A stretch of DNA of 38,207 nt from Alphaproteobacteria bacterium (lineage in GTDB: Bacteria > Pseudomonadota > Alphaproteobacteria > Bin65): contig JAJFFJ010000064.1 of NCBI GenBank assembly GCA_021776685.1, forward strand, positions 1 through 38,207, written 5' to 3'. The notes beneath the pieces are model-generated. The model ran no database searches. It was not told where the DNA came from and saw only the letters and a program-made list of their open reading frames with translations. Of this stretch, positions 16,164 to 17,210 are shown in pieces; within the stretch, counting starts at the first letter, position 1, and the number at the start of each line of letters is the position of its first letter. The position numbers and the translations under genes were made by a program.

Positions 16164-16394
16164 ATGACCAACAACGTTGTCGGATTCCAGGAATCGCCCG
16201 CGCGGGCCGAGACCAGCCTGTCAGACGCACAGGAAAGCTCAATCCGCCGTGTGGCCAACGATCTGCACCGCCTGAATGAAGCAATTCAGAAGGCAGTGGA
16301 GAATGGGGTGACGGTGGAACTCATGCGCGCCTCCCGCTTCCATGGCGAGAATGGCGCTTATGGCGACCAGATGATCCCCATCATTACGCGCTGA
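16164..16394 (+). CDS. Small conserved-looking protein co-transcribed with aceA
   Basis: A 76-residue protein 24 bases after aceA with a good AGGAG site, before a strong terminator, so it shares the aceA transcript. No signal peptide or membrane segment. The middle is an amphipathic helix (SSIRRVANDLHRLNEAIQKAVENGVTVEL), and the end (RFHGENGAYGDQMIPIITR) is rich in Gly, Tyr and His. I do not recognise a named family. The placement suggests a role linked to isocitrate lyase or growth on acetate, for example as a small binding partner, but this is only inference from position. Confidence 0.75.
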   Translation: MTNNVVGFQESPARAETSLSDAQESSIRRVANDLHRLNEAIQKAVENGVTVELMRASRFHGENGAYGDQMIPIITR

Positions 16395-16449: not shown

Positions 16450-16481
16450 AATGGCGGCTTTTCCAAGCTGCCATTTTTTTT
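16450..16481 (+). terminator. Rho-independent terminator of the aceA operon
   Basis: An 11-bp stem AATGGCGGCTT/AAGCTGCCATT (one G-T pair) with a TTCC loop (16461-16464), followed by T from 16474 to 16481. It is 55 bases after the stop of the 76-residue gene and should end the aceA transcript. Confidence 0.9.
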
Positions 16482-16568
16482 GGCAGGGTTTCGCAGTGTT
16501 TCCGGGCTTACGGACGCCTTAACTCTGTGAAAAGCAATTCCTGATACACCAAGGGCAGAATTCCCCGG

Positions 16569-16594
16569 GCCGCCCCCCACTGTGGCGGCTTTTT
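16569..16594 (+). terminator. Second terminator-like hairpin just before the next gene
   Basis: The stem GCCGCC/GGCGGC (16569-16574 and 16584-16589), with a 9-base loop, is followed by TTTTT (16590-16594). The next ribosome site begins only a few bases later and the ATG is at 16610. Since the aceA operon is already closed at 16481, this hairpin either ends a short RNA made from about 16482-16594 or works as an attenuator in the leader of the downstream two-gene unit. The sequence does not decide between these. Confidence 0.6.
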
Positions 16595-16609: not shown

Positions 16610-17005
16610 ATGACAAATCAGGTTTCGATTCCGGCAGATACCGCACCATCTGCTGTGACAGAAGACGAGAGTGACCAGGTATCCGCCGCGGCGGACAGCC
16701 TTTTAAAGCGCATGTCGACAGAGATGTGCGACAGCTTCTCCCCGGCACAACGTCAGGCTGTGGGCAAGGCGGTAATCGAGGCAAAGACCCGGGATTTCCT
16801 GGTCAATCTGCGCCTGACCCTGTTTGGCGCCTTTTTCAACATCATCATCGGCCGTGAAAACCGCAATCCCGTACGCCAGGCCCACGAACGGCGAAGGCAC
16901 CCGCTGGCGACGCCGGGCAATCTGTTCGTTTTGGCGCTGATCGCAATCTTCGGCGTGACGCTCGGCTGGATTTCCTACCAGTTAGTCGCCCACGGGGGCC
17001 TCTAG
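16610..17005 (+). CDS. Unrecognised membrane protein paired with Flp pilin
   Basis: A 131-residue protein. Residues 1-60 are hydrophilic and acidic, with a helical stretch SFSPAQRQAVGKAVIEAKTR. About residues 65-82 (LRLTLFGAFFNIIIG) are mildly hydrophobic, followed by a very basic stretch (RENRNPVRQAHERRRH) and one clear membrane helix near the end (about 103-125, LFVLALIAIFGVTLGWISYQLV). The likely topology is an inner-membrane protein with most of it in the cytoplasm. The start has GGGAGAAG upstream. Its stop is one base from the pilin start, so the two are co-translated. No known family is recognised; a helper for the pilin is possible. Confidence 0.7.
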   Translation: MTNQVSIPADTAPSAVTEDESDQVSAAADSLLKRMSTEMCDSFSPAQRQAVGKAVIEAKTRDFLVNLRLTLFGAFFNIIIGRENRNPVRQAHERRRHPLATPGNLFVLALIAIFGVTLGWISYQLVAHGGL

Positions 17006-17006
17006 C

Positions 17007-17210
17007 ATGTATATCCGGCCCTATCGGGAAATGGCCCGGGACGAGGGCGGCGCAACGATGATCGAGTACGGCTTCATCGTCCTGCTCGTCTCAATCGCCA
17101 TTGGCGTTGGCGGCGGCGCCCTGGGTGATCTTCTGACCTCTGTGTCCCAGAAGGTGTCCCAGAAGGTTCAGGTGGGCGATCGCCCCTGCACACCGCGCTG
17201 CTCGCAATAG
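17007..17210 (+). CDS. Flp/Fap-type IVb pilin, orphan, with cysteine tail
   Basis: A 67-residue prepilin. Residues 12-35 read DEGGATMIEYGFIVLLVSIAIG. The prepilin peptidase cut falls after Gly15, leaving mature A-T-M-I-E-Y with Glu at position 5, as in Flp pilins of the Tad system. The hydrophobic stretch forms the pilus core helix. The leader is 15 residues, a normal length. Unusual is the C-terminal end, VGDRPCTPRCSQ, with two cysteines, which Flp pilins usually lack. A near-duplicated SQKVSQKV precedes it. No tad/cpa genes or prepilin peptidase are in the window, so assembly machinery must be encoded elsewhere, if used at all. Confidence 0.85.
   Translation: MYIRPYREMARDEGGATMIEYGFIVLLVSIAIGVGGGALGDLLTSVSQKVSQKVQVGDRPCTPRCSQ

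Follow-up and report, generated by a model that had tools for sequence, protein, structure and literature searches.

Analysis of a 38,207-nucleotide stretch of an alphaproteobacterial genome (the window, which is contig 119 of the assembly) revealed a gene pair in which the gene for a small membrane protein directly precedes the gene for an Flp prepilin (Table 1). The pair is best explained as a unit that supplies an accessory pilin to the ordinary Tad pilus of the cell, a reading to which we give a probability of roughly 60%. It is adopted because the pilin scores above the PF04964 cut-off, the lone assembly machine of the genome lies on contig 23 and six Flps are located outside that locus. 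Computation established the existence of both genes and their order, the assignment of the pilin to the Flp family, the presence of a tad locus on another contig and the recurrence of a partner gene followed by a prepilin gene. The accessory-unit reading is limited by the presence of the Flp pair in two genomes only, by a grouping of the partner proteins that is not firm and by the finding of the partner in none of ten genomes of the same family.

Table 1. Positions of the gene pair and of associated sequence features in the window.
Feature	Position	Strand	Basis and remarks
Terminator-like hairpin after the isocitrate lyase/SMc00767-family unit	16450..16475	+	11-pair stem, then T run
CtrA-like site TTAC-N7-TTAAC	16508..16523	+	87 nt upstream of the pair; motif scan
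Weak terminator-like hairpin in the leader, just 5' of the membrane-protein gene	16569..16586	+	5-pair stem; within shuffle range
Small membrane protein, 131 aa	16610..17005	+	Stop TAG at 17003-17005; ORF list and family profile
Flp (type IVb/IVc, Tad) prepilin, 67 aa	17007..17210	+	ATG at 17007; PF04964 36 bits
Predicted start of the mature pilin, ATMIEY	17052..17069	+	Prepilin peptidase cleavage G/A just before; Glu5; from sequence
C-terminal CTPRC, two cysteines at mature positions 46 and 50	17187..17201	+	From sequence

The pilin ORF is not a chance ORF, since it passes the cut-off of the Pfam family Flp_Fap (PF04964; cut-off 32.2, E 6e-9), and the membrane-protein ORF is coding too, since a paralog with 48% identity is encoded on contig 106 of the same genome and a family of relatives occurs in other genomes of the class. 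The sequence and the ORF list confirmed the observation of the earlier note that the membrane-protein gene ends one base before the pilin start (17005 against 17007). The pilin reads ...DEGG/ATMIEYGFIVLLVSIAIG...DRPCTPRCSQ, with glutamic acid at +5 and tyrosine at +6; this confirms the canonical prepilin motif that the note had recognized. This motif, GG/ATMIEY, is followed by a hydrophobic helix with a hydropathy maximum of 2.14 at residues 22-40. The TadE profile gave no match to the pilin at E up to 1, and the pilin motif is EY, not GxxxxEF. Sequence matches to the solved pilins 8u1k and 8u2b were weak (E 0.39 and 0.57). The two genes are probably co-transcribed and would then form a transcription unit of their own. 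Neither the window pilin, nor the window membrane protein, nor its relative in genome G157 had a match in a plasmid collection.

The C-terminal tail of the pilin was compared with 47 distinct Flp-like ORFs, a non-random set drawn from the best-scoring search loci together with loci of the source genome and of the membrane-protein family, and recovered by a home-made profile that included the window pilin. A cysteine was counted in the mature part of five of the 47 ORFs. Two C-terminal cysteines were found in four, namely the window pilin, one Flp in G122 and two in G273, with an additional, more internal cysteine in the second of these two. The fifth case was discarded, as its cysteine belongs to the leader and was counted through failure of the motif pattern. 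The cysteine pairs in G122 and G273 led us to reject the idea that the pair is unique to the window pilin. The tail CTPRCSQ, earlier called atypical of Flp, is therefore uncommon (4/47) but not unique, and it is missing from the recurring pair of G403, where the prepilin on contig 228 contains no cysteine. From its residues, a disulphide in the tail of the window pilin is possible. The two G273 Flps are tandem pilins (locus L067, 1138-1428 and 1435-1704, minus strand), each with its two C-terminal cysteines 17 residues apart.

The source genome (4.54 Mb, 158 contigs, rated 98.85% complete) encodes a single T2SSE-family ATPase at E of at most 0.001. It is located on contig 23, beside the only A24 prepilin peptidase over the cut-off in the genome, the enzyme that the earlier note had proposed to locate; a second A24 match on contig 25 was sub-threshold (18.1 bits against 26.5). 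The minus strand of contig 23 carries TadC-, TadB-, CpaF/TadA-, CpaE-, CpaD-, CpaC-, CpaB- and CpaA-like genes and an Flp gene, and two TadG-like genes diverge from this run. Apart from the ATPase, the peptidase and the Flp, these names are our assignments from gene order, recall and tblastn. The products of the genes so assigned, except the CpaD-like one, matched a similar cluster by tblastn in G157, G399 and partly in G334. Within the window, tblastn with ten proteins of the contig 23 tad locus (E at most 1e-5) detected no Tad gene, so that the absence of Tad machinery noted earlier applies to the window and not to the genome. The T2SSE and A24 searches found no second assembly machine for a lone Flp in the genome. 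As the lone A24 peptidase and T2SSE ATPase both lie in the contig 23 tad locus, processing and assembly of the pilin would need the Tad machine.

A total of seven Flp-like ORFs were identified in the source genome. Contig 38 holds two of them, and contigs 23, 31, 35, 116 and 119 hold one each. Five of the seven exceed the Pfam cut-off and six are located outside the tad locus; a lone Flp gene is therefore no oddity in this genome. An eighth match, on contig 112, was dropped as a chance match (E 1.5). The Flp pilin of contig 116 (G000, L014:442-1218, plus strand; 258 aa, over the cut-off) has a long tail rich in Gly/Ser and then in Ala/Lys, and a perfect CtrA-like site precedes its gene at a distance of 118 nt. 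A similar form of 226 aa, below the cut-off, is present on contig 31 (L016:4525-5205). Across the window's family the distribution of Tad looks patchy. Seven genomes of one genus (G002, G004 and G006-G010) lacked both an Flp match (E 0.01) and a CpaF match (E 1e-40); Flps were present in G001, G003 and G005, and CpaF in G001 and G003.

The 131-aa protein consists of an N-terminal domain, the core GRExR...R...ER..HPL.T.GN and a C-terminal transmembrane-like helix. Hydropathy analysis placed the C-terminal segment at residues 105-123, after a basic stretch, and revealed a weaker hydrophobic segment at residues 63-81. Alignment of the members gave a family core of the kind HPVxxRLSLP..GRExR..RR..ERxxHPLxTxGN. 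Nine fragmentary or weak members were set aside from the tree and hydropathy analyses; the remaining 39 of 48 all contained the transmembrane-like segment towards the C-terminus, usually preceded by basic residues. Owing to a weaker hydrophobic segment near residues 60-85, present in the window protein, the contig 106 paralog and the G403 member, single-pass topology is likely and not certain. AlphaFold2 applied to the 131-aa protein alone gave an all-helical model whose confidence was insufficient for further use (mean pLDDT 69.1, pTM 0.35).

Among 385 genomes sampled from the class, profile searches revealed this family in at least 37, the source genome included; the two class searches used nearly identical draws of 385 genomes, each counting its own centre genome. 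Because just 10-11 candidates were scored in most of the large genomes, the counts are lower bounds. The family profiles (alignments A1 and A5) were built with the window protein, and their support consists of the independent members recovered. The family is present in four of 17 genomes of another bacterial family (f16). Single-sequence search with the 131-aa protein found no relative in the ten same-family genomes, two of which are 74-75% complete. MepA synteny gave a match in two of these ten, and neither locus contained an ORF of the membrane-protein family. No Pfam family (nine members searched) or NCBIfam family (six members searched) scored over its cut-off; the sub-threshold names DUF7059, SepX/GlpR, GspB and DUF3175 obtained for the membrane proteins were dismissed. 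A genome-contig collection contained no relative when queried with the 131-aa protein alone and with the paralog, and word searches of the literature, as distinct from sequence searches, found no paper on the family. In L018 (G038) and L020 (G047) the neighbour of the family member is a divergent gene, which we take to resemble NAD-specific glutamate dehydrogenase.

A total of 48 member loci from 39 genomes were screened for prepilin-like ORFs by motif and hydropathy. A prepilin-type gene was found directly downstream in six loci (five genomes, two families), at a spacing between -76 and +18 nt. These genes are the Flp of the window, an Flp-like gene on contig 228 of G403, and TadE on contig 73 of G403 and in G157, G334 and G399. 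TadE was confirmed by Pfam in G157 and G403 and called by eye from like sequence in G399 and G334. In f16, a prepilin gene is coupled to each of the five family members that its four carriers contain. The other 42 loci showed no prepilin-like ORF in the stretch examined (mostly 1.5 to 2 kb per side, less at contig ends), and none was found within the 15 kb surrounding the contig 106 paralog. A downstream match in L124, a 441-aa ORF, was rejected as spurious (coding score -28). As a control, all 213 kb of these loci were found to contain seven prepilin-like ORFs shorter than 300 aa, that is, the six coupled genes and a second TadE behind one of them, and ten shuffles of the window contained none. 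At the gene level, a prepilin-like ORF followed five of 189 called genes, comprising four family members and one TadE; two coupled members were missed by the gene caller, a simple GC-position score that misses genes, including the window's own pair at the stricter setting.

The Flp pair recurred in one other genome, G403, which belongs to a different family. On its contig 228 a membrane-protein gene is followed by an Flp-like prepilin gene with an overlap of 22 nt, and the pair is flanked by ORFs that we take for a sugar kinase and an adenosylhomocysteinase. Identity to the window proteins is 39% over 96 residues for the membrane protein and 29% over 52 residues for the prepilin, and the latter had no Pfam match even at E 1. 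The tad queries gave no tblastn match in the first 6 kb of contig 228, and the CpaF of G403 is located apart from the pair, on contig 134. In the tree of 39 rows the two Flp-linked members grouped with the contig 106 paralog at a support of 90/89, which is below the tool's mark for a firm group, the G403 row lying on a long branch with unsure placement; the four TadE-linked members formed a separate group (99/96). The coupling of pilin and membrane protein suggested in the earlier note thus recurs in G403, with a grouping of the members that is not firm.

CpaF was present in all five genomes with a coupled member, a count that carries little weight. Both genomes in which the Flp pair was found are among these five; the comparison of genomes with and without tad that the earlier note had advised therefore placed the pair in CpaF-positive genomes only (2/2), which is the genomic half of what that note had named as evidence against a separate system. 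Among all carriers, CpaF was detected at E 1e-40 in 33 of 39 genomes and was absent from six, two of them 63% and 86% complete; an Flp match at E 0.01 was obtained in 33 of the 37 carriers searched and in four there was none. The uncoupled state of 42 of the 48 loci, together with the six carriers lacking CpaF and the four lacking Flp, indicates that the family has no general tie to pili.

The upstream neighbours of the pair, identified by Pfam and NCBIfam, are an ScfR-type regulator, isocitrate lyase and a 76-aa SMc00767-family acetate metabolism repressor (NCBIfam 99.4 bits, cut-off 95), and the downstream neighbour is a convergent murein endopeptidase of the M74 family. The repressor gene (16164-16394, plus strand) lies directly behind isocitrate lyase with the divergent ScfR-type regulator alongside, and the three apparently constitute an intact glyoxylate-shunt control unit. 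The 11-pair hairpin probably separates the gene pair from the isocitrate lyase/SMc00767-family unit, the hairpin evidence being suggestive: a scan of 1.2 kb found three such sites against 1.5 (sd 1.7) expected from shuffles.

Alternative explanations of the pair were weighed against these results. The earlier note had suggested that the pair may form a minimal system other than the usual Tad pilus. In that case the two proteins would form a self-standing surface or secretion system working without the Tad machine, for example an inner-membrane complex with the pilin helix as anchor and the disulphide tail as closure. No tad gene was detected near the pair, either in the window or in the 6 kb examined in G403, the upstream terminator-like hairpin suggests that the pair may be expressed alone, and the membrane-protein family occurs in six carriers without detected CpaF. 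However, the genome contains no T2SSE ATPase (E 0.001) and no A24 peptidase over cut-off other than those of the contig 23 tad locus, and CpaF is present in both Flp-pair genomes, so a separate system is unlikely. The two genes could also be chance neighbours or a decaying remnant, with a general membrane protein standing before a dispersed and rarely used Flp copy. The absence of the membrane protein from the ten same-family genomes is consistent with this, as are the best match of the pilin outside its own genome (only 36 bits in the search of 385 class genomes) and the 42 family loci that have no nearby prepilin gene. Yet both ORFs are intact, the gene order recurs in G403 and four times with TadE, and the only other prepilin-like ORF shorter than 300 aa in the 213 kb of loci is a tandem TadE; chance association thus appears unlikely.

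An improbable explanation is that the membrane protein is a regulator, such as a membrane-bound sensor or anti-activator, of the accessory pilin or of surface sensing, and that it is under CtrA control together with other Flp genes. The 38-kb window contains a single CtrA-like site with one mismatch or fewer, the one upstream of the pair, and such sites occur within 350 nt upstream of three of the six Flp units of the genome (perfect in the case of contig 116) against none of 32 other called window genes. The Caulobacter pilA gene is described as CtrA-controlled in PMC11264516. However, the scan was chosen post hoc, after the sequence had been seen, and chance alone would give 0.86 sites in the window. 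The count is raised by the AT-rich leader of the Flp gene on contig 35. Upstream of the major Flp of the contig 23 tad locus there are only sites with two mismatches, and no site at up to two mismatches was found in the 6 kb around the G403 pair. The site upstream of the pair is a regulatory lead only.

For the accessory-pilin unit, the following route is proposed. Export, cleavage and assembly of the pilin are predicted from its sequence: the Flp prepilin would enter the inner membrane, would be cleaved in trans at GG/ATMIEY by the single CpaA-type peptidase, and would then be incorporated, in a minor, adapter-like or alternative role, into the pilus of the single CpaF/TadA machine encoded on contig 23. 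The exposed tail CTPRC may close a small periplasmic disulphide loop. The 131-aa protein is probably oriented with its N-terminus inside and has one clear transmembrane helix near its C-terminus; made just ahead of the pilin, it is most likely an inner-membrane partner that would hold, deliver or meter the subunit. We extend this only tentatively, and with some doubt, to the family as a whole, whose members may be inner-membrane partners of Tad-type prepilins. In some lineages a dedicated member would then escort or meter one particular subunit into the pilus, Flp in the window and in G403 and TadE in the other family, and the subunit could be a specialised one, for example disulphide-tipped.

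Comparison with known systems revealed likenesses and differences. The window pilin resembles Flp/Fap pilins such as Caulobacter PilA in its Glu5-Tyr6 motif, short mature protein and hydrophobic helix; it differs in its location outside a tad locus, in the CTPRC cysteines and in having ahead of it a gene from an uncurated membrane-protein family. In the TadE pairs of G157, G399, G334 and G403 a member of this family likewise precedes a prepilin-type gene directly, but that gene is TadE (GxxxxEF) in place of Flp and, in G157 and G399, lies inside the tad locus. According to PMC10934763, the orphan Flp gene smc02446 of Sinorhizobium meliloti forms an operon with the transmembrane gene smc02447, of unknown function. 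The paper describes similar operons in S. fredii and A. fabrum and states that either of the two pilins of A. fabrum can replace the other. Likened by description only, smc02446/smc02447 shares with the window pair a lone Flp outside tad clusters and a transmembrane partner. Caulobacter CpaL, according to PMC12607857, is encoded by an orphan pilin-like gene outside the main cluster and affects Tad piliation; it is alike as a pilin-like Tad subunit and differs in its predicted large size and vWA domain. In Myxococcus, two small Flps, KilK and KilO, are reported to serve as adapter pilins for pilus tips (PMC12075869), KilO being encoded in a separate tip-gene cluster. They are alike as minor subunits of a Tad-type machine, but KilO adjoins tip-complex genes, of which none was detected in the window.

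The pilin itself is best read as an ordinary accessory Flp of a Tad-positive genome. What is new is that, in two bacterial families, some Flp or TadE genes are directly preceded by members of an uncurated membrane-protein family. Accessory Flps away from the tad locus are many in the source genome and have been published in a few bacteria. The membrane-protein family is a concrete candidate for the selection of subunits by a shared Tad machine. If the membrane protein has no part in this selection, the finding amounts to one more accessory pilin; if it does escort or meter its subunit, the genome could load specialised subunits onto a shared Tad machine.
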